Assembly (NCBI GenBank): GCA_903896545.1
Contig: CAITYF010000051.1
Location: 1 to 64,000, forward strand
Source: an uncultured Myxococcales bacterium
Lineage (GTDB): Bacteria; Myxococcota_A; UBA9042
Direction: 5' to 3'
DNA length: 64,000 nt
In this document: positions 6,712-22,943 of the stretch, one piece after another
Layout: the number at the start of each line of letters is the position of its first letter
Numbering within the stretch: position 1 is the first letter of the stretch
Notes under the pieces: model-generated
Database searches by the model: none
What the model saw: the letters and a program-made list of their open reading frames with translations, nothing else
What the model was told of the DNA's origin: nothing
Translations under genes and position numbers: made by a program

Positions 6712-8754
6712 CTACTCCTCTTCCACCCGCGGCCTGTACGCCGCCGCCACCGTCTGCTGCACCTGCGCGGGCGTCGGCTCGTAGTGGCTCAGCTCCATCG
6801 CGAAGCTGCCCAGCCCGCCCGTCACGCTCTTGAGCATCGACTGGTACGACGTCACTTCCGCCAGCGGCGCGTGCGCCTTGATGGTCACCGTATCGCCGCT
6901 GCCCATGTCGGTGCCCAGCACCTTGCCGCGCCGACTCGACATGTCGCCGGTAATCGCGCCCATCTTGTCTTCCGGCACGACCACTTCCAGCGTCACGATC
7001 GGCTCCAAAAGCACCGGCCGCGCCTTCTGCAGCGCGTCGCGGAACGCGAACTTGCCCGCCGTCTTGAACGCGACTTCCTTGGAGTCCACCGGGTGGTACT
7101 TGCCGTCGGTCACCGTCACGCGGACGTCCTGCAGCGGGTAGCCGCCGACAAAGCCCTCGTCCAACAGTTCGCGCACGCCTTTTTCCACCGCCGGGATGTA
7201 CTGACCCGGAATCGCGCCGCCGACAACAGCATCTACAAATTCAAAGCCCGCGCCGCGCTCCAGCGGTTCCACCCTCAGCATCACTTCGCCGAACTGCCCG
7301 GCGCCGCCGGTCTGCCGCCGATGCCGGTAATGCCCGTCGGCGGAGGCCGTAATCGTCTCACGGTACGCGATCTTCGGCTGCTTTGTGTCGACTTCCAAAC
7401 CGCGGTGCTTCAGCTTTTCAAGAATCAGCCGCAGGTGCAGCTCACCCAGGCCGCGCACGACCATCTCGTGCGTCTGGCTGTCGTGGCTGACCGTGAACGT
7501 CGGGTCCTCCTCCACGATCTTGTGGAACGCGCCCGCGATCTTCGCCTCGTCGCCGCGCGTCTTGGGCGCCACGGCCAGTCCGTGCATCGGCGTCGGGTAG
7601 TTCAGCGGCTTCAGGTGCACGGAATCCAGCGCGTGGTCGTCGTGCAGCACGTCGCCTGCGTGGATTTCTTCCACTTTTGCGACAGCGCCGATGTCGCCCG
7701 CGACCAATTCCTCGCACTCCGGGTGGTCTTTGCCCTGCAGGTGAAACACGTGGCTCAACTTCACCGGCTTCTTGCTCGCGCCAATGTAGACCTGCGCGTT
7801 GCTCAGCGCGCGACCTTCATGCACGCGGAAATACGCAAGCTTGCCCACGAACGGATCCGTCGTCACCTTGAACACGTGCGCCAAAAGCGGCCGATTCACG
7901 TCGTTGTGGTACGCAAACGGCCGCTCGTCCGCGCCTTCACCGGTCAGGAACGGCCGCTCGTTGCCTTCGAGCGGATTCGGGCACCAGCGCTCGATGATGT
8001 CCAGCAATTCAGCAAGGCCCGTGCCGTTCTTGGCGTCGGTGAAGCAAATCGGGATGACGTGACCTTGGTCCAAGCACTTCTCAAACGGCGCGTGCAGCGC
8101 GTCGTAGTTCGGCTCTTCCCCGCCGAGGTACGTTTCCATCAGCGCTTCATCCACTTCCACGACCTGATCCAGAATCGCCGCGTGGAAGTCTACCACCGCG
8201 CCCAAGTCGCTTTCTCCCGCGTTGTTCAGCAGGCAGTCGATGACGCCCTTGCCGCCCTTGGTTGGCAAGTTGATGGGCAGGCACTCGCGCCCAAACGTGT
8301 CCTGAATCTGCTGGACCAGCGCCTTGAAGTCGACATCGGGCGCGTCGATCTTGTTCACGACGATCAGCCGCGGCCAATCTGCGCTGCGCGCCGCTTCCAT
8401 CATCCGCCGCGTCACGAGCTCCACGCCGGCCGAGGCATTGATGACCACGGCCACCGTTTCTACAGCGGGCAAGCAGGCGATCGCTTGACCGATCAAGTCC
8501 GCAGCTCCTGGTGTGTCGATCAAGTTCACCCGCCGCCCGGCGTGGTCAAAGTGTAGGACTGAGGCGTAGATCGAGTGTTTGTGTTCCTTCTCCTCTTTTT
8601 CAAAATCACTCACGCTCGTGCCGTCCTGCACCGAGCCTTTGCGCGTCACCGCGCCCGCCGCATGCAAAAGCGCGTCCACGAGCGTGGTCTTCCCCGCGCC
8701 CATGTGACCGACCAGAATCAGATTGCGAATGTCTTGTGTGGAAATTTTGGCCAT
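6712..8754 (-). CDS. Elongation factor G-like GTPase (EF-G paralogue)
   Basis: GHMGAGKTTL P-loop, DTPGAADL, NKID, and EF-G domain IV/V-like C-terminus; start at MAKISTQDIRN. Confidence 0.9.
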   Translation of the reverse strand: MAKISTQDIRNLILVGHMGAGKTTLVDALLHAAGAVTRKGSVQDGTSVSDFEKEEKEHKHSIYASVLHFDHAGRRVNLIDTPGAADLIGQAIACLPAVETVAVVINASAGVELVTRRMMEAARSADWPRLIVVNKIDAPDVDFKALVQQIQDTFGRECLPINLPTKGGKGVIDCLLNNAGESDLGAVVDFHAAILDQVVEVDEALMETYLGGEEPNYDALHAPFEKCLDQGHVIPICFTDAKNGTGLAELLDIIERWCPNPLEGNERPFLTGEGADERPFAYHNDVNRPLLAHVFKVTTDPFVGKLAYFRVHEGRALSNAQVYIGASKKPVKLSHVFHLQGKDHPECEELVAGDIGAVAKVEEIHAGDVLHDDHALDSVHLKPLNYPTPMHGLAVAPKTRGDEAKIAGAFHKIVEEDPTFTVSHDSQTHEMVVRGLGELHLRLILEKLKHRGLEVDTKQPKIAYRETITASADGHYRHRRQTGGAGQFGEVMLRVEPLERGAGFEFVDAVVGGAIPGQYIPAVEKGVRELLDEGFVGGYPLQDVRVTVTDGKYHPVDSKEVAFKTAGKFAFRDALQKARPVLLEPIVTLEVVVPEDKMGAITGDMSSRRGKVLGTDMGSGDTVTIKAHAPLAEVTSYQSMLKSVTGGLGSFAMELSHYEPTPAQVQQTVAAAYRPRVEEE

Positions 8755-8776
8755 ACGACACCTCACGTGTGAGGGG

Positions 8777-10701: not shown

Positions 10702-11634
10702 CTACTGGCAAATCGGCGCGTTCCGCAGCGCTTTTTCCAGCTGCTCGATGCGCTTGGCCTGTTCCGTCAACTGCCGCTGTTGCACCTGCAGCGCCGCGAC
10801 GGACATGCTGAGGTACCCGTACAGATCCACCATGTCGCGCTTCGCGTCGACCGCTGGGCTGTTCGGCTGGTCATCGATGATGAAGCCCAGTTGCTGCGGC
10901 GCCTGCGGACCTGCGTCGCGGTACTTGTAGGTCGCCAGCTTCGTCGCCAGCAGTTCACTTTGCAGCTTGGCCACGTCGTTCGCGTCCAAATAGCGGATGT
11001 CGGTCTTCTTGGAACGACGCGAAATCGGGCAGCCGCCCGCGCCGGTCTTGGGATCCTTGTCCGCGCAAATGAGATGCTGCTGGCACGCGTTCACCAGGTC
11101 GCAGGTCACGGCGCCTGGCGCGCAGGCGTCGCCCTCTTTTTGCGTCGTGCACGCGGGCAAGCTCGGATCGGCCTTGGGACCGCTGCACACCGGCGCGCCG
11201 CAGGTCGTGTACCACTTCGTTGTTGCCGCCTTGCACGATCCGCCTGTGTTCATCACGACGCCCGCAGCATTGGCTTCGCAGCCGTTGCCGTAGTCTTTGC
11301 CGTCACAGCCGCAGATGGGGCCGTAGATCGCGGGACAGGCTTCGGGGCGCTTGGCGCACGTGCCTTTGCCGGTGCACTGGCCTTCCGGTGCTGAGCAGTA
11401 CGAACCCGCGCCGCAGGAAGTGTCGCCGACGGTGCAACCGGCCGAGGCGACGTCGGTGCCTGCCGTGACGTCAGTCGTCGCCGCGTCTGTGCCCGCGGTG
11501 GTGTCCGATCCGGCGATCTGGCTGTCTTCGCCCGCGCCGCTGTCCGCAGTGGCTTCGGTGCTACCACCGTCGAGCCAGCAGCCGCTCAAACCGAGGAGGG
11601 AAAGAGACGTGACGGTGAGAAAAAACGTACGCAT
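10702..11634 (-). CDS. Lipoprotein with Kazal-type domain and C-terminal S74/intramolecular-chaperone-like region
   Basis: Lipobox LLGLSGC; CPAIYGPICGCDGKDYGNGCEANAAG Kazal pattern; C-term SRRSKKTDIRYL...YKYRDAG...LGFIIDDQP..DLYGYLSMSVAALQVQQRQLTEQ as in S74 domains. Confidence 0.8.
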   Translation of the reverse strand: MRTFFLTVTSLSLLGLSGCWLDGGSTEATADSGAGEDSQIAGSDTTAGTDAATTDVTAGTDVASAGCTVGDTSCGAGSYCSAPEGQCTGKGTCAKRPEACPAIYGPICGCDGKDYGNGCEANAAGVVMNTGGSCKAATTKWYTTCGAPVCSGPKADPSLPACTTQKEGDACAPGAVTCDLVNACQQHLICADKDPKTGAGGCPISRRSKKTDIRYLDANDVAKLQSELLATKLATYKYRDAGPQAPQQLGFIIDDQPNSPAVDAKRDMVDLYGYLSMSVAALQVQQRQLTEQAKRIEQLEKALRNAPICQ

Positions 11635-11698: not shown

Positions 11699-12778
11699 TT
11701 AGGTCCGCAGCGCTGGATGGTTCTCGCGCAGCCACAGCACGGTGTCCGCCAGCGTTTGGTACGGCGGGCGCGACTTGTAGCCCAACTCGGACTCTGCGTA
11801 GCGCGATTGGATGTCCCACCAGTGACCGGCCATCTCGATGACCACCGGGTCCGGTAACGGCGACTTGCGCTTCTGCGGCAGCCGCGCGGTTGCCTCTTCC
11901 GCGACCGTCGCCAGCGACCACGCGAGACCCTGCGGAATCACACGCGTCGGCGCGGGCACGCCCGACACCTCCTGCAGCATGCGGAAAAACACTTCAATCG
12001 ACGTCGCCGTTCCGCCCAAGTGGTACACCGGACGCGCCGCCGGATGTCGCAGCGCGCGCACCAGCGCTGTCGCCGCGTCACGCACGTCGATGAAGTGCAT
12101 GCCGCCGTGGATGAGAAACGGAAACTTCCGCTGCAAGTGCTTGATCACGTTGCCGCTGGAGCGAAAACGGTGATCGCCGGGTCCGAGCATGACTGGTGGG
12201 CGCACCACAGTGAGCAAGACGCCGAGCTCGGCCGCCAAGAGCCGCGCCTGCTTTTCCGCTTGAATCTTGCTGTCGTAATACGGCCAATTTTTCACCGTCT
12301 GGTCGACGTACGGCGCGTCTTCCAATGCGACCTTTCCCGCGCGATTGAAGCAGGCGACAGTGCCAGAAGTCGATGAAAACACGATGCGACACTGGTGTTT
12401 GCCCGCCAAACGCACCAGCCGAAGCAGGCCCTGCACGTTTGTTTCGTACATGTCCTGCGGGTCGCGCCGCGCGTGCCGCACGATCGCCGCCAGGTGCAAG
12501 ATGCCGCCCAGCCCATTGAGTCGCGGGTCACGCAGCCAGGCATCGTCCCCGGTCACGCCGCCTTCAATCAGGTCAACGGGGCCAAGTGCCGCGGTCCAGT
12601 CCAGCTTCTGCCATTCCGCTGGATTGCGCACCAACACGCAGATGTGCGTCTCCGGCTCCAACACGCGCAGCGCTTGCAGCACGTGGCGGCCGAGAAAGCC
12701 TGTCGCGCCCGTGACGAGCACGGTGTGTCCACGACGCGCGTGGGGGCGATTCGCCTGTTTTTCTTCGTGCAAAGCCAT
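11699..12778 (-). CDS. Extended SDR / NAD-dependent epimerase-type oxidoreductase
   Basis: VTGATGFLGRHV Rossmann motif, YYDSK (YxxxK) catalytic motif; immediately downstream of the FAR-acyltransferase fusion. Confidence 0.88.
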   Translation of the reverse strand: MALHEEKQANRPHARRGHTVLVTGATGFLGRHVLQALRVLEPETHICVLVRNPAEWQKLDWTAALGPVDLIEGGVTGDDAWLRDPRLNGLGGILHLAAIVRHARRDPQDMYETNVQGLLRLVRLAGKHQCRIVFSSTSGTVACFNRAGKVALEDAPYVDQTVKNWPYYDSKIQAEKQARLLAAELGVLLTVVRPPVMLGPGDHRFRSSGNVIKHLQRKFPFLIHGGMHFIDVRDAATALVRALRHPAARPVYHLGGTATSIEVFFRMLQEVSGVPAPTRVIPQGLAWSLATVAEEATARLPQKRKSPLPDPVVIEMAGHWWDIQSRYAESELGYKSRPPYQTLADTVLWLRENHPALRT

Positions 12779-12779
12779 C

Positions 12780-15488
12780 TCAGGTTCCCGTCGCGCTTTC
12801 CGGCCACAGCGCTGTATTTGCGGTCAAATCCGTCAGCTCGGCGACGTAGTGGCCCAGCGACTGCGCGTTCTGCCCCCACGTGTGGCCCCATTGCGGGTGC
12901 GCGGTCAGAATTCCGCGCGACGTCAAGTCCGCGAAAGCGCTCTGCAAATGCGGCAGGAACGCCTGCGGCGCGTCAAAGAGCACCGTCTGCGCCGAACCGT
13001 GGCGCGGCGGCCATTCCGTCGGACCCAGCGCTTTGGCCACCGCGAGGTAATCGCGCACCACTGGGGCGAAGAGCGCGCCCAGAACCGCCTGCAAGCGCGG
13101 ATCCCGCAGCGATTCCAACTCCGCCGCTTCCACTTCCGCGAAGCCGTTTTGCGCGACGTAGTGCTGTACGGCGGGGTGATCCGGCCAGGTCGCCAGCGCG
13201 TCGCCGTAGAACCAGTGCTGCCAGTTGTAGCGCATGCAGAACTCCGCCGACTCCGTCAGCTCTGCTTCTGCCACCAACGGACTGTCCAGTACCACGCCGC
13301 CTCGAACTTCGATCGCCTCGCGCAGCCAGTCTTCATCCACGCCTTCCAGCGGATTTTGCGCCAGGAACGCGCGCAGGTGGTGCGTCGTCGTTGCCGTCAC
13401 GAACTGCAACTGCGCCATGATGTCGTGGCTAACGGCGCGCACGTCGCTCTGCATGTCCATCGGGACGGGCTCGCCGCACGCGATGTGGACGCGGCCCAAG
13501 TGCACTTTGCCGTCCACCATCTCCTTGGTCCAACGCAAAAGCGCTGCCAACTGCATCTCCGGCTTCTGCAGACCCGCCAGTTCGCGCAGGAGCGACGTTT
13601 CCTCCGGCACGCGGTCGTACGTGATCGCGATCGGCAGCATGGTGAAGCGCTCTCCGGTCGACTGCAGGCAGCGCAGAAGCCCCGTCCGTGGCGCCAAGAA
13701 CTGCCGACTGCGGCTGCGCTGACCCTCGATGAAGAACTGCAGCGTTTCGCGCTTCTCGACCAGATCGTGGACCTGGCGGGTGAGCGCCGCGTCCGCCTTG
13801 CCCTGACCGCGCTTCAAGTAAAACGCGTGCGTGTGGCGGAACAGTTCGCCCAGAATCGGCAGGCGGGAAAACTCCTCTGCCGCGGCAATGTGCGGAATCG
13901 CGATCCCCAGATCCGGGCGATCGAAGAACAAGTACGAGCAGAGCAAGAAGTCCATGTAAGACCGGTGATTGGGCACGAGCACCGGCAGCGTATTGGGCGG
14001 CAAGGCGCGAACCGCGGCCTCAAAACTCGGCCGATCAAACGTGACCTGCGTCGTGCACTGGCGCAGCGCCTTGCGGATCGCCAGCGCGAACGTGCGGATC
14101 GCCCAGTTGCCTTCCGGTTGCTGCGTGACCCAGAGCCAGTCCTGCTTGGCGTCTTTGTGCTGTTTGCCGCCAAACATCATCTGCGTGGCGTCCTTCTTCA
14201 TCAGATGACGGTAGACGCCGCGGCAAATCAGCTCGATGTACGCGTCGACAGTCCAGTGGACGTCGCCCGTCGCATCGGTGGAGCGGAAGTCAAACGTGTT
14301 GTGCGTGAAGTACGGAAACGCGCGGTTGAGGAATTTCAGCTTCTCGCCCACGCGCGTCGCCTGGCGGACTTTCTTGGGCTGATTCGCGACCTTCAGCCCG
14401 ATGCGCGCGACGCCCAGCGGCACGCGATGGTGGCGCATTTCTTCCAGCGCAAAGCGCTTGGACGGCGGGCCGATCCACTCGACTTCAGGCACGCGATCGA
14501 CAACGTGGCTCTGGAAGAAGCGCACGATGCCCGACACGGACTGTGAAGTCGTCGGATTTTGCGCCAGACCGGCGACGGCGTAACGGACGCGCATCGGGCG
14601 CTCGGCCTCTTGCAGGAAACACGTGTCGATCGTGCGCTTGGCGACGATGTCGCACGGGACGACGTCCAGCTTGCTCTGCGGATCGGCGACCAGCACGCGC
14701 AGGTGTCCGGTGCCAATCAGCGCGACAAAACCGGCAAAGGCCGCCGCCGAGTCGAGCCACCCCGGAAACGGGTGGTGCAAGCACGCGGAGACAACCGATG
14801 GGCGCACGATGGAAATCGGCACGTGCCCGCGCCGTTCGCTCAGCAGGTGTTCGGCGAGGCACTTTGTGAACGTGTAGGTATTCGGATGCCCCGTGACTTT
14901 CAGCAGCTCTTTCTCGTCCGCCGTCCCGTCCAGAATCGCCTGGTACGTCTCCGACGGCGAAATCGGCAGCGGCACCAGTTGTTCCAGCACCGGACCCTGA
15001 TTTTCACGCCACGGCGTCACGTACGCCGTCGACACGCTGACCATGTGCTTGAGCCGGATGCAGCGCTGCGCCAGCGCCAAGACGTTGAGCGCGGCCGTGA
15101 TGTTGGAATTCGCGGCTTCTGCCACCGGCAGGTCAAAATCCACCGATGCGGCGCAGTGGATAATGTGCGTCAGGCGCGTGGTCAGCAGTTTCTGATCGGC
15201 GCGGCTGATGTCGCAGTACGCGTGCGTCAGCTCGCCGTGGATCACGTGGCACCAAGCCGGCCAATCGTCGCCAAGGAGCTGAAAGCACGGTGATTCAACG
15301 ACGTCTTTGTCAAAACGCTGTTCGGCCGTGCGATCCTTCTTGCCGCGGATGAGCACGTAGACCTTTTCCAGGCCCAGCTCCTCCCGCCGCCGAATCAGCT
15401 CCGCCAGAACGACCTTACCGACAAAACCTGTCGCACCCGTCAACAGCAGGTGCGCGCCGTGCAAAGATGTGATCTTCAAGCCACTCAC
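12780..15488 (-). CDS. Fatty acyl-CoA reductase-like domain fused to DHAPAT/GPAT-like acyltransferase
   Basis: N-term LTGATGFVGKVVLAELIRR and YTFTK; C-term acyltransferase motifs NHRSYMD, FFIEGQRSRSR, LPIAITYDRVPEE. GTG start in a GTGA overlap with the AGPS-like gene. Confidence 0.88.
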   Translation of the reverse strand: MSGLKITSLHGAHLLLTGATGFVGKVVLAELIRRREELGLEKVYVLIRGKKDRTAEQRFDKDVVESPCFQLLGDDWPAWCHVIHGELTHAYCDISRADQKLLTTRLTHIIHCAASVDFDLPVAEAANSNITAALNVLALAQRCIRLKHMVSVSTAYVTPWRENQGPVLEQLVPLPISPSETYQAILDGTADEKELLKVTGHPNTYTFTKCLAEHLLSERRGHVPISIVRPSVVSACLHHPFPGWLDSAAAFAGFVALIGTGHLRVLVADPQSKLDVVPCDIVAKRTIDTCFLQEAERPMRVRYAVAGLAQNPTTSQSVSGIVRFFQSHVVDRVPEVEWIGPPSKRFALEEMRHHRVPLGVARIGLKVANQPKKVRQATRVGEKLKFLNRAFPYFTHNTFDFRSTDATGDVHWTVDAYIELICRGVYRHLMKKDATQMMFGGKQHKDAKQDWLWVTQQPEGNWAIRTFALAIRKALRQCTTQVTFDRPSFEAAVRALPPNTLPVLVPNHRSYMDFLLCSYLFFDRPDLGIAIPHIAAAEEFSRLPILGELFRHTHAFYLKRGQGKADAALTRQVHDLVEKRETLQFFIEGQRSRSRQFLAPRTGLLRCLQSTGERFTMLPIAITYDRVPEETSLLRELAGLQKPEMQLAALLRWTKEMVDGKVHLGRVHIACGEPVPMDMQSDVRAVSHDIMAQLQFVTATTTHHLRAFLAQNPLEGVDEDWLREAIEVRGGVVLDSPLVAEAELTESAEFCMRYNWQHWFYGDALATWPDHPAVQHYVAQNGFAEVEAAELESLRDPRLQAVLGALFAPVVRDYLAVAKALGPTEWPPRHGSAQTVLFDAPQAFLPHLQSAFADLTSRGILTAHPQWGHTWGQNAQSLGHYVAELTDLTANTALWPESATGT

Positions 15489-17506
15489 GCGGCACCTCCC
15501 TCTTTCTTGGCAGCGCGCGCGCGCTTGGTCGCTGCCGGCGCGGGCGTGGCACTAGCGGCTGCCGAATCCGGCGCTGCGGCTTGATTGCGGGCAGCAAAAA
15601 TATCAGACGGATCCAGCGCTTTCTTGGCCTCGATACGCCACGCCAGGCCGGCGTCACTCATGATCTTCGGCAGGTATTCCTGGCGCAGTTTGCCCACGCC
15701 GTGGTGGTGCGAAAGCGAGCCCCCTTGCGCCAAAATCTCATCACGCGCGATATTTTCAAGCTCGTGGTAGACCGCCGTCGGGTTCTGCACACCTTTGTAA
15801 TGAAACGCGAAATAGAAGTAGACGCACACGCCTGTCTCATAAATCTGCGTGACGCGACACGTAATGAACGGCGTGCCCGGCAAACCGCGCTTGGCGTGTT
15901 CGTCCCAAATCCGCTTCTTGACGCCTTCACACAGCGGAATCACCTGCGACCACGGCACGCTGGTCTCAAACGACTCGGCAAGCACCCAGTGCTTCATCAC
16001 AAAATCGCGGATGTACGCGATGCTGTAGGTCAGCTGATAGCCACGCGAACCGTTCTCCGCGCCGGCCTTCATGCCATTGTGCTTGGCGGCGATCGCGTAG
16101 ACCTTGGCCTCCTGGGCCGCGACGTCTTCTTTTGCGCCTTCAAAAACCAGCGTGCACGCGACCATCTGCGTCGGGTCAAAGCCTTTGATCTGCGTGACGA
16201 AAAGCTTCTCGATCTTGGACTTCTGCACGTGCCAGCCTTCCGACGCCGGCTTGAGCGCCTGGCCGAACTGGAACTGCAGGTTGTCCATCAAGCGCACGGA
16301 CGCGGGCCAATTGCCGGCGTGCGCCAATTCGTACATGAACGCGACGCCTTGGTCGAAGGTCGGGAAGAGAATGGAGCCGTAGTTCTGCGCTTCAGGAAGC
16401 GGAAACAGCTTGACGACGGCGCCGGTGATAATGCCGAGCGTGCCTTCCGAACCAAAGAGCCACTGCCGCGGGTCAATGCCCACCGACTCACGCGGTCCGA
16501 CGGACGAACGCTCGATTTTGCCTTGTGGCGTGATGACATGCACGTCGAGGACGAGGTCTTCGATGTTGCCGTAGCGGTTCTTTTTCATACCGGACGCGTT
16601 GGTCGCGATCCAGCCGCCCATGGTGCTGAATTCCACGCTGTCAGGCTCATGGCCCATCGTCCAACCGTAGCGGGCGAGGCTCGTGATGATGTGCCGTCCG
16701 ATTGCGCCCGCTTCGATGTACGCCATGCGATTGACGGGGTCGATCCAGCGGATCTTGTCCATGCGGCGCATGTCCACGGAAATAATCGTCCGCGTCTCGT
16801 TCTCAGGGCAGCGCAGCGCGTCGGTCACGTTGGTGCCGCCGCCAAACGGAATCAGCACCGCACCGTGTTTTTGCGCCGCCTGCACAAGCGCGATGACCTG
16901 CGCCTCTTCGGTCGGCCACACAACGAGATCGGGAATGCGTCCGAGTTTCGCGAACTTGATCGCGTACATTTCCTCTTGCGTTTGGCCATGACCGTGACGC
17001 AAACGCGTCGGGCCGTCGACGCTCCACTGATCCGGCGGCAGCAGCGCCGTGAGCGTCTCCTGCAAGGCGGCGTTGGTCACCGGCGCGGGAAAATCGGTCG
17101 GCGTCGGCCAGGAGCGAATATCCAGCGGATCGATTGTCACGCCCATGACGCCCTGCACCCACGGCAGCAGCGACGGCAAGCGCTGGTTGGACAGTTCGTA
17201 ACGCGTGCCGGTCAAATAGACGTCGCCGTTCGGCTTGGCCTCAAAAGCGGTGTCGGCAAAGCCCCACATGTCTGGACTTTCGGTCTCGTCCGCCGTGATC
17301 TGCAACGGTTCTGGCGTGAATCGGGTGTTGCCGCCGCGCGGCGTCGCCAGATCCTGCGGACGCAGGGAATCGACCCACTTGCGCGACTGCGCCAGCGCCG
17401 CGATACCCGTCTTGCCAATAGCTCCCAGCACGCGCTCGACCGCCATCTTGCCTCCCAAACCCTGTTCACGTTCCGCTGTCGGGGTCGCATCACCCGACGC
17501 GTTCAC
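15485..17506 (-). CDS. Alkyldihydroxyacetonephosphate synthase-like FAD-binding oxidase
   Basis: PFGGGTNVTDAL FAD/PCMH motif, EFSTMGGWIATNASGMKKNRYGNIEDL, C-terminal SHHHGVGKLRQEYLP characteristic of AGPS; 673 aa. Confidence 0.9.
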   Translation of the reverse strand: MNASGDATPTAEREQGLGGKMAVERVLGAIGKTGIAALAQSRKWVDSLRPQDLATPRGGNTRFTPEPLQITADETESPDMWGFADTAFEAKPNGDVYLTGTRYELSNQRLPSLLPWVQGVMGVTIDPLDIRSWPTPTDFPAPVTNAALQETLTALLPPDQWSVDGPTRLRHGHGQTQEEMYAIKFAKLGRIPDLVVWPTEEAQVIALVQAAQKHGAVLIPFGGGTNVTDALRCPENETRTIISVDMRRMDKIRWIDPVNRMAYIEAGAIGRHIITSLARYGWTMGHEPDSVEFSTMGGWIATNASGMKKNRYGNIEDLVLDVHVITPQGKIERSSVGPRESVGIDPRQWLFGSEGTLGIITGAVVKLFPLPEAQNYGSILFPTFDQGVAFMYELAHAGNWPASVRLMDNLQFQFGQALKPASEGWHVQKSKIEKLFVTQIKGFDPTQMVACTLVFEGAKEDVAAQEAKVYAIAAKHNGMKAGAENGSRGYQLTYSIAYIRDFVMKHWVLAESFETSVPWSQVIPLCEGVKKRIWDEHAKRGLPGTPFITCRVTQIYETGVCVYFYFAFHYKGVQNPTAVYHELENIARDEILAQGGSLSHHHGVGKLRQEYLPKIMSDAGLAWRIEAKKALDPSDIFAARNQAAAPDSAAASATPAPAATKRARAAKKEGGAA

Positions 17507-17757: not shown

Positions 17758-18600
17758 CTACCGCCAACTGGGTGCGCCAGGACCGTCGACGAGGTCGACG
17801 AGTTCGCCGTGAATGACGCCATTGGATGCCAGCGTTCGACCCGCGAAAACGTGATGCGGCGTGCCATCGAAATCGGACAATTGCCCGCCAGCGGCGGTGA
17901 TGATCGCGCAGCCGCCGACCAAATCCCACGGTGCCAGTCCTGGCTCGTAAAACGCATCCAGACGACCAGCCGCGAGTTCGCACAAATCAAGCGCGGCTGC
18001 ACCCCCGCGTCGCACGCAATGGGCGCGTTCCAGCGCGCGGCCAAGCCAAGCGAGCAGTTGCGGCAGGCGTTGTCGCCGGTCGTAAGGAAAGCCGGTCGCT
18101 ACCAGCGCGCGCGACAGCGTCGTGACGCGGGAAACGGCGATGGGCAGGCCATTGCACGTCGCCGGAACGTGGACGCCGCCGACGAAGATCTCGCGGCGCG
18201 CGGGTGCGAGAACGACGCCGAGGACCGGAACGCCAAAGTGCAAAAGCCCGATGGACACGCAGAAGTTCAGGTGGCTATGGGCAAAGTTCGTCGTTCCGTC
18301 CAGCGGGTCCACGACCCAGCACCAAGGCAGACGCGCAACACCCTCCGCCATCGCCCGCGCGCCGTCGCGTCCGTCGGATTCCTCGGCGAGAAAGGCGTCT
18401 TTTGGGAAAGCAAAACGGAGTTCGGAGAGAATGGTTGCTTCCGATTCGCGGTCGGCGATCGTCACCAAATCAACCGGCGACTTCTCCTCGATTCGCTCCA
18501 ACTTCCCGTAGTGCCGCATCAGCACGGCGCCGGCTTGCTCGGCAGCGCGCAGCGCAATCTTGAGACGTGACTGGATTTCCTGAAGCGGAACGTCCGTCAT
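17758..18600 (-). CDS. Inositol monophosphatase family protein
   Basis: DLVTIADRESE, WVVDPLDGTTNFAHSHLNFCVSIG, WDLVGG motifs; ATGA overlap with the upstream SDR gene. Confidence 0.92.
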   Translation of the reverse strand: MTDVPLQEIQSRLKIALRAAEQAGAVLMRHYGKLERIEEKSPVDLVTIADRESEATILSELRFAFPKDAFLAEESDGRDGARAMAEGVARLPWCWVVDPLDGTTNFAHSHLNFCVSIGLLHFGVPVLGVVLAPARREIFVGGVHVPATCNGLPIAVSRVTTLSRALVATGFPYDRRQRLPQLLAWLGRALERAHCVRRGGAAALDLCELAAGRLDAFYEPGLAPWDLVGGCAIITAAGGQLSDFDGTPHHVFAGRTLASNGVIHGELVDLVDGPGAPSWR

Positions 18601-19436
18601 TTGCGGACCAACGCTTCGCTGACCGCCCACAGGCGGCTCGACAGCGCGTCGTCCTTCGCCGCGGCACTGGTCGGCGCGAGCTTGCGGAGAATGTAGTAGC
18701 CGCCGCTTTCGCCCTCGACCTCCGGGCTGGACGCGAGCCAGATGATGGTGTCCGCGCCTTGGATCGGCGTCACCATGAACGGCGTGGCAAAGATCGCCAC
18801 CAACTTGCCGCCTATGCTGCCGCTGGCGCTCCAGATGTTGGTCGCGACGACGCCGGGATGCAGGCAAGTCGCCGTTACTCCCGTGCCAGTGAGGCGTTTG
18901 GTCAGTTCGCGGGTAAACAGCACGTTGCACAGCTTGGAGTTGCCGTACGCCAGCATCTGCGACCATTTCTTGGTCATCGCCAAATCGTCGGGATCCAGGG
19001 CGGCTCGCTTGTGACCGCGCGACGCGACGCTCACGATGCGCGCAGGTGCGGACGCCTGCAACGTGGCGAGCAGTTCGGTCGTCAGCACGAAGTAGCCGAA
19101 GTGATTCAGCGCAATGGTGCGCTCCACGCCGTCCGCGTTCAGCTCGCGTGCGCCGTAAGCAGCGCCGGCGTTGTTCACCAAGATGTGCAGCTGCCCAAAC
19201 CTCGCCAGGAACGCTGCCGCTGCAGCTTTGCCGCCCGCGATCGTCGACAAATCCGCTGCCAGCGTCTCCACTTTCGCGCTGCCAGAACGCTCGCGGATCT
19301 CTGCCGCGGCCCGCTCCGGATCGCGGGACAGGCACACGACGGTCGCACCTTGCTTGGCCAAGTCGATCGCCGTTTCCTTACCGATACCCGAACTCGCTCC
19401 CGTCACGAGCGCGATTTTGCCAGCCAGATTCGCCAT
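18597..19436 (-). CDS. Short-chain dehydrogenase/reductase (retinol dehydrogenase-like)
   Basis: VTGASSGIGKETA, NNAGAAYG, YGNSK motifs. Confidence 0.92.
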   Translation of the reverse strand: MANLAGKIALVTGASSGIGKETAIDLAKQGATVVCLSRDPERAAAEIRERSGSAKVETLAADLSTIAGGKAAAAAFLARFGQLHILVNNAGAAYGARELNADGVERTIALNHFGYFVLTTELLATLQASAPARIVSVASRGHKRAALDPDDLAMTKKWSQMLAYGNSKLCNVLFTRELTKRLTGTGVTATCLHPGVVATNIWSASGSIGGKLVAIFATPFMVTPIQGADTIIWLASSPEVEGESGGYYILRKLAPTSAAAKDDALSSRLWAVSEALVRK

Positions 19437-21071: not shown

Positions 21072-22943
21072 ATGACCGATTCGCCCGGGCAAAACGCTCC
21101 ACAGCACCAACCGCGGTCGGCTCCGCATTTGCAGTCGATTGCGACGAACCTGCGGTGCAACCAGAATTGCCTGTACTGCAATCGACGCGAGGCGACAGAC
21201 GACCTCGCGGCAATCGCGCCAAAGGCGTTGCGCGCGGCGATTGAACGGGCGTTGGCGGCGGGCTCACAGGAAATTCGCCTGACGGGCGGCGAGCCGACGT
21301 TGCGTCGCGACCTGACCGAATTGGTGCAGTTTGCCAAAGCTGCAGGTGCGTCGCGCGTGTCCTTGGAGACGAACGCGACGCTGATTGACCTGGCACGAGC
21401 GCACGCGCTGGCTGCCGCAGGGCTGACGACCGCGCGCGTGAACCTCGTCGGACCGGACAGCAGGATCGACGCGGTCACGCAGGACGCAGGCGGTTGGGAA
21501 CGCACCATTCAGGGAACCCGCGCGCTGCTGCAAGCGGGTGTGACGGTCGAGATCGTGTGCGCGCTGACGCGTTCCACGCGGGACCTTGCCCCGCTCATGC
21601 CCGCGGCGTTGATCGCTGCGGTGGGCGACGTTGGGCGGCCGCAGACCATCGAGGCCGTGGTGCCGTGCGATGGACCGAACCCGACGGAGTGGCTCGACTA
21701 CCCCGCGGCTGCCGAAGTGCTGCGGGAGTTGGATCTGGCCTGCCGCGCACACGCCATTCCTCTGCGGCTGGCGCCAAATTCTGGACCGCCGCCTTGTATT
21801 TTCCCGCCGCGCCGCGGGTTGCCGCATCTCTACAAGTTGTCGCCGGGGGCGCGGCAAAGGCCAAATCATCAGCACGTCGCGGTGTGTCAGAGTTGTATCC
21901 TCGCCGATCGCTGTTCGGGGTTGGCGGCCGTGTACCTGCAGCATTTTCCGCCGCCGGAACTCCATCCGATCACCGACGAGAAAGCGAGGCGACGGTTGAG
22001 CATGCTGCGTCCCTTGCCTGAGCAAATTGCGCGCGAGTTGGTGGCCGAATCGATGACGGTAGGCGCAGATGGGAGGCCGACGTACGACGCGATCGTCCGC
22101 ATCAATTTCCACTGCAATCAAGCGTGTGCGTTCTGTTTTGTCTCGACGCATCTGCCACCGGCGACGGACGCTGCGATCGAAGCGGTGATTCGCGCCGCAG
22201 GTCAGCGCGGGTCGCGGATCGTGCTTTCAGGCGGCGAACCAACGCTGAATTCGCGGTTGACGGACTGGATTCGCCTCGCAACGCAGGTCTCCACGCTGCC
22301 GGTTTGCCTGCAGACAAACGCCGTGCGGCTGGATAACGCCGAACTGTGTCGCGCAGTGGTTCACGCAGGCGTTCGTCAAGCCTTTGTGTCGCTCCACGGC
22401 GCGACGCCCGCGGTCGGCGATGCAGTCACGGATACGTCAGGGACCTTTGTTCGCACGCTCGTCGGCTTGGACAACCTGTACGCGCACGCGGTCGAGCTTG
22501 TGCTCAACTTCGTCCTCTGTGAGGCCAACCTCCACGAGTTTCCCGCGTTCATTCGCCTCGTCGCGGCGCGCTGGCCAAAGGCGCTGGCCAACTATTCGTT
22601 CGTCGCGCCGTCGACGGATCTGGTCCCGAAAGAGACACGTCTCATTCCCAAGTATTCGGATATGCTGCCGGCGTTGAGTGAAGGACTCCGTTTGGCGCAA
22701 GAAATGGGCGTTCAAGTCGTCGGCTTCGAGTCGATGTGCGGCCTGCCGCTGTGTCTGCTGCCGGACACCTTTGATCGCGCGCAGCTGCAGCTCACCGCGA
22801 TTCCCGACGGGTTCGATGAAGGTGCGTTCGTCCGCGCGTCGGCGTGCACGCAGTGCGACTACAATACGCGCTGTTTCGGCTTGCGTCGTGGCTACGCCGA
22901 ACTCCACGGGACGGGCGAACTGCGCGCTATTCGCGGCTCTTGA
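21072..22943 (+). CDS. Tandem (duplicated) radical SAM protein
   Basis: Two radical SAM clusters (CNQNCLYCN, CNQACAFCF), two GGEPTL motifs and two C-terminal CxxCxxxxxC motifs (CQSCILADRCSGL / CTQCDYNTRCFGL). Confidence 0.93.
   Translation: MTDSPGQNAPQHQPRSAPHLQSIATNLRCNQNCLYCNRREATDDLAAIAPKALRAAIERALAAGSQEIRLTGGEPTLRRDLTELVQFAKAAGASRVSLETNATLIDLARAHALAAAGLTTARVNLVGPDSRIDAVTQDAGGWERTIQGTRALLQAGVTVEIVCALTRSTRDLAPLMPAALIAAVGDVGRPQTIEAVVPCDGPNPTEWLDYPAAAEVLRELDLACRAHAIPLRLAPNSGPPPCIFPPRRGLPHLYKLSPGARQRPNHQHVAVCQSCILADRCSGLAAVYLQHFPPPELHPITDEKARRRLSMLRPLPEQIARELVAESMTVGADGRPTYDAIVRINFHCNQACAFCFVSTHLPPATDAAIEAVIRAAGQRGSRIVLSGGEPTLNSRLTDWIRLATQVSTLPVCLQTNAVRLDNAELCRAVVHAGVRQAFVSLHGATPAVGDAVTDTSGTFVRTLVGLDNLYAHAVELVLNFVLCEANLHEFPAFIRLVAARWPKALANYSFVAPSTDLVPKETRLIPKYSDMLPALSEGLRLAQEMGVQVVGFESMCGLPLCLLPDTFDRAQLQLTAIPDGFDEGAFVRASACTQCDYNTRCFGLRRGYAELHGTGELRAIRGS

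Follow-up and report, generated by a model that had tools for sequence, protein, structure and literature searches.

The window analysed here, a 64,000-nucleotide stretch of DNA from an uncultured Myxococcales bacterium, carries at positions 11699 to 17506 three tightly packed, co-directional genes, which an initial annotation had read as a compact ether-lipid operon. The predicted products were an alkylglycerone-phosphate (alkyl-DHAP) synthase (AGPS), a fusion of a fatty acyl reductase (FAR) with an acyltransferase (AT), and an extended SDR. Re-examination of the locus found this span to be exact and verified both junctions: on the coding strand, a GTGA at 15488-15485 forms a 4-base stop/start overlap between agps and the fusion gene, and a single base (12779) separates the fusion gene from the SDR gene. 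In Pfam searches, FAD_binding_4 and FAD-oxidase_C were matched by the first product, NAD_binding_4 and Acyltransferase by the second, and Epimerase by the third, with every score well in excess of the cut-off. The parts are arranged as follows:

15485..17506, minus strand: agps, alkylglycerone-phosphate (alkyl-DHAP) synthase, 673 aa, GTG start (ORF, Pfam and phmmer)
16508..16933, minus strand: FAD_binding_4 domain of AGPS, residues 192-333 (Pfam PF01565, 121 bits)
15590..16399, minus strand: FAD-oxidase_C domain of AGPS with the HHH motif, residues 370-639 (Pfam PF02913, 145 bits)
12780..15488, minus strand: FAR-acyltransferase fusion, 902 aa, GTG start (Pfam; fused in 22 other loci, split in a few)
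14637..15443, minus strand: fatty acyl reductase domain (NAD_binding_4) of the fusion, residues 16-284 (Pfam, 205 bits)
13623..13985, minus strand: PlsB/GNPAT-type acyltransferase domain of the fusion, residues 502-622 (PF01553, 74.5 bits)
11699..12778, minus strand: extended SDR, ElbE-like, 359 aa, ATG start (Epimerase, 94.5 bits; tree)

A scan for promoters and terminators at the operon yielded promoters no better than chance and no clear operon ends. Elsewhere in the window, an elongation factor G gene (6712-8766, minus strand; 882 bits to the EF-G model) showed no link to the operon, and positions 21072-22943 (plus strand) encode a 623-aa protein with two radical SAM domains, a MoaA-like one followed by an HxsC-like one, for which no equivalog match was obtained.

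AGPS loci were compared within a sample of 284 genomes of the phylum Myxococcota. The order and orientation of AGPS, FAR-AT and SDR are kept in 19 genomes from five families, the window's genome included, and the operon proteins of the 18 others show identities down to about 42-55%. As the same genes recur in the same order and orientation in 18 other genomes, the three-gene arrangement is not due to chance. At variant loci, AGPS is followed by a stand-alone acyltransferase (L122), by a stand-alone FAR (L123, L124) or by the SDR, with FAR located elsewhere (L129), and a further locus (L132) harbors a FAR-SDR fusion. This recombination of FAR, AT and SDR as neighbors or fusions around AGPS supports a role in a shared pathway. 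Two genomes of one genus (L127, L128) carry a gene for a sulfatase-TPR protein after AGPS instead of FAR, acyltransferase or SDR, and in one genome (L126) the gene after AGPS encodes a sulfotransferase-family protein.

The three-gene layout is already known and not new. In Myxococcus xanthus, MXAN_1676-1674 encode AGPS, a FAR1-like plus GNPAT-like fusion, and an NAD-dependent epimerase/dehydratase-type protein; this operon was studied by Curtis 2006, Lorenzen 2014 and Gallego-Garcia 2019 and was reviewed in 2022 (PMC9131029). The window operon shows the layout described there, with AGPS, FAR-acyltransferase fusion and SDR genes adjacent and co-directional, and it is thus another case of a known type. 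The two genomes agree in the kind and order of the three genes and in a CarF homolog encoded elsewhere, but M. xanthus has an elb operon in addition, whereas no ElbD was detected in the window's genome.

The third gene indeed encodes an extended SDR, with an Epimerase match of 94.5 bits and intact Rossmann and YxxxK motifs, and its best NCBIfam model is HpnA (167 bits, below cut-off). The closest relatives of this SDR outside such operons are the elbD-adjacent SDRs of three genomes (33-37% identity), two of which show 37% identity and about 200 bits; other SDRs fetched from the window's own genome score at most 58 bits. A quick maximum-likelihood tree with three ElbE rows joined the operon SDRs and the elbD-adjacent SDRs at an SH-aLRT of 96 and separated them from 29 further SDRs encoded in these genomes. 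MXAN_1674, ElbA and ElbE have been noted to share a broad family (PMC9131029).

For this SDR, we favor a predicted role in reducing the ketone of alkyl-DHAP. A possible, though less likely, alternative is that it reduces fatty aldehydes, carrying the two-electron reduction by FAR on to the alcohol, with an unlinked enzyme acting on alkyl-DHAP. This would fit the occurrence of the same SDR type at elbD, where a FAR domain is present but AGPS is missing, the direct joining of FAR to this SDR type in one genome (L132), and the observation that M. xanthus ElbD is tied to the i15:0 aldehyde, while fatty alcohol was not detected (PMC9131029). On the other hand, the SDR comes after AGPS in L129, where FAR is located elsewhere, and an aldehyde reductase would leave the operon without an enzyme for alkyl-DHAP reduction. 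Upstream of the operon and on the same (minus) strand lie genes for an inositol-monophosphatase-like protein (17758-18570) and a classical SDR (18597-19436), both of which recur beside AGPS in some relatives; the classical SDR is an alternative candidate for the reduction of alkyl-DHAP.

The second gene had been read as a FAR-like reductase joined to a GPAT/DHAPAT-like acyltransferase, and both its Pfam domains and its invariant motifs bear this out. The top PDB match of the FAR domain is the fatty acyl-CoA reductase 7eoz, and its YxxxK motif (Y205, K209) is invariant in 22 other fused homologs, which also keep TGxxGxxG wherever the respective columns are present (two rows are gapped). No match to Sterile, the C-terminal FAR domain of Pfam, was found in the window's fusion protein. 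In the acyltransferase part, the blocks H508-x4-D513 and EGxRSR are invariant in the same 22 homologs. The matches of this domain in the PDB comprise only glycerol-3-phosphate and 1-acyl-glycerol-3-phosphate acyltransferases, with no GNPAT among them, and together with the PlsB/GPAT models these are the closest matches of the domain, as would be expected if it were a glycerol-3-phosphate acyltransferase, the operon fed diacyl or wax/neutral lipids, and AGPS obtained acyl-DHAP from another enzyme. We consider this unlikely, since its scores of 105-111 bits against the NCBIfam PlsB models fall far short of the cut-offs (>600), the domain is fixed beside AGPS in five families, and the genome encodes a separate PlsB-like protein that reaches 411 bits to the PlsB model, compared to 111 bits for the fused domain. 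Given this separate, housekeeping PlsB-like protein, the role of general acyltransferase probably does not fall to the fused domain. We retain DHAP as its putative acceptor.

The evidence is strongest for the first gene. Using phmmer against the PDB, its product matched guinea-pig AGPS (entry 4bby) with 586 bits (E = 1e-174). The score to the Dictyostelium enzyme was 302 bits, and non-AGPS chains, including D-lactate dehydrogenase and glycolate oxidase, scored at most 95 bits. Both motifs highlighted by the initial annotation, SHHHGVGKLRQEYLP and PFGGGTNV, are present in the protein. Identity to the guinea-pig enzyme amounts to 47% over 566 aligned residues; in common columns the window protein is 47% identical to the guinea-pig enzyme, compared to 31% between guinea pig and Dictyostelium. 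All AGPS active-site residues examined (guinea-pig numbering: H300, D303, T309, R419, R515, Y578 and HHH615-617) are kept in the window protein and are invariant in 31 homologs. Neither a grouping with glycolate/lactate oxidases nor a loss of catalytic residues was thus observed, and the identification as AGPS stands. The reading as a generic glycolate/lactate-type FAD-linked oxidase in a cluster not devoted to ether lipids, to which the Pfam domains common to AGPS and glycolate oxidase and the nearest NCBIfam model (GlcD, 142 bits; cut-off, 568) might point, is ruled out for the protein itself by the AGPS score of 586 bits and the complete set of active-site residues including Y578, R515 and HHH, which leaves it exceedingly improbable as an account of the cluster. 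Hence, AGPS identity is strongly supported at the sequence level, and acyl-to-alkyl exchange is the predicted activity.

AGPS, FAR, a PlsB-type acyltransferase and an SDR, with intact motifs and a conserved gene order, are what can be read directly from the DNA. On this basis, the locus very likely represents an MXAN_1676-1674-type operon for ether lipids that acts in the pathway proposed here. The FAR domain would produce a fatty aldehyde or alcohol from acyl-CoA or acyl-ACP, and the fused acyltransferase would place an acyl chain onto the sn-1 hydroxyl of DHAP, a role that we infer from the need of AGPS for acyl-DHAP. AGPS is then predicted, with strong support from homology and residues, to form alkyl-DHAP by replacing the acyl chain with the fatty alcohol. 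Reduction of the ketone by the SDR would give alkyl-glycerol-3-phosphate, although, less likely, the SDR may finish the aldehyde-to-alcohol reduction instead. Alkyl-glycerol-3-phosphate would subsequently pass to the normal phospholipid enzymes to form plasmanyl lipids, which an unlinked CarF homolog may convert to plasmalogens using O2.

A search of the genome for a CarF/TMEM189 desaturase, as suggested by the initial annotation, found such a relative with the nine essential histidines on another contig than the operon. This 238-aa PF10520 protein matched only one NCBIfam family, the CarF plasmanylethanolamine desaturase (249.7 bits, E = 3e-74), at a score below the 500-bit equivalog cut-off, and no relatives of CarF were found in the PDB. 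Nine histidines, the number that CarF requires (PMC9131029), are conserved in at least 69 of 70 homologs. Its residue H102 would be the equivalent of the animal-type histidine H113 of M. xanthus, because one divergent homolog has arginine at this position, the residue given for plants (PMC9131029). The description of the cassette as O2-independent-looking fits the steps of the operon itself but does not extend to the CarF step, as CarF is described as an oxygen-dependent desaturase (PMC9304148). Kazal-domain proteins are encoded next to both the AGPS operon (10702-11634, minus strand) and the CarF homolog (upstream, L134:6789-7940), and the one on the operon side is conserved within the genus as well as in another genus of the family.

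Among the 284 genomes, 77 encode PF10520 proteins, and these genomes span at least two classes, a wider spread than the near-restriction of CarF to Cystobacterineae reported for 27 genomes (PMC9304148). AGPS and CarF are associated in the sample as a whole (20/32, p = 8e-6), with the signal coming from the window's family; outside this family, the association is not significant (p = 0.34). In 21 of the 60 CarF genomes tested for ElbD (family f33 and others), neither AGPS nor ElbD was present, so that these genomes have either another ether-lipid route or desaturases that act on something else.

Compared to the animal peroxisomal pathway (GNPAT, FAR1, AGPS and AGNPR/PexRAP, followed by PEDS1/TMEM189), the window operon shares the enzyme classes for the predicted acyl-DHAP formation, fatty alcohol supply and acyl-to-alkyl exchange, and the genome also encodes a PEDS1/CarF-type desaturase. 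The operon differs in that the genes form a single bacterial operon, FAR is fused to the acyltransferase, and the reductase is an extended, ElbE/HpnA-like SDR unlike PexRAP, which is a classical SDR. The myxobacterial elb operon (ElbD, ElbE) resembles the window operon in its FAR domain, acyltransferase domain and adjacent ElbE-type SDR. However, ElbD has additional acyl-CoA synthetase (ACS) and ACP domains and an acyltransferase described as AGPAT-like, and the elb operon contains no AGPS.

To locate ElbD, ElbD-type proteins (FAR-ACS-ACP-AT, 1611-1660 aa) were identified in four genomes, and the FAR part of one of them served as the query against 87 genomes that are not independent of one another, namely the 22 of the window's family plus 65 selected on their completeness and on whether they carry CarF or AGPS. 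No ElbD (about 1600 aa) was found in the window's genome, an absence that is not absolute in a 94.75% complete draft of 272 contigs, and none was found in the other operon-bearing genomes of the family. A second strong NAD_binding_4 protein in the window's genome (contig C132) was rejected as ElbD and turned out to be a single-domain SDR. As no ElbD was found, the operon is probably the only alkyl-ether route of this organism. ElbD was detected in 1 of 30 AGPS genomes compared to 27 of 57 others (Fisher p of about 1e-5, without phylogenetic correction); among the ElbD calls, those for G099 and G218 are based on frames about 800 aa long and that for G063 on a contig-edge fragment, and the AGPS call for G258 was deduced from an operon cut by the contig end. 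AGPS was found in 10 families, compared to 9 for ElbD; two families contain both, as does one genome, and the sole ElbD genome of the window's family (G070) has CarF but no AGPS. This near-exclusion agrees with the counts of a Black Sea survey from 2025, in which 120 and 121 of 347 Myxococcota MAGs had AGPS and ElbD homologs, respectively, and a smaller subset held two or more of the screened genes (PMC11868695).

AGPS and ElbD thus look like alternative modules that share FAR and ElbE-type SDR parts. We tentatively propose, as an idea of slightly less than even probability, that an AGPS operon of the animal type may be the sole ether-lipid route in many Myxococcota that lie outside the Myxococcus group and may supply an animal-type CarF there, resulting in an aerobic plasmalogen pathway without ElbD. 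AGPS and ElbD may then be interchangeable, rarely coexisting modules with FAR and an ElbE-type SDR in common, which would point to a common intermediate. A non-exhaustive literature search turned up no statement of an ElbD-free setting with CarF, of the exclusion between AGPS and ElbD, or of the link to ElbE.

Whether aerobic bacteria use the animal-like acyl-DHAP/AGPS route has been called an important question (PMC9131029). In M. xanthus, deletion of MXAN_1676 lowered ether lipids only slightly, a minor effect attributed to the dominance of ElbD (PMC9131029), and ElbD thereby masks the answer in this species. Lineages with the operon and CarF but without ElbD are natural knock-outs for answering it. 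The common ElbE-type SDR gives a lead on what the AGPS and ElbD routes share, and the similarity of the bacterial AGPS to its mammalian counterpart is relevant to the source from which animals acquired this pathway.
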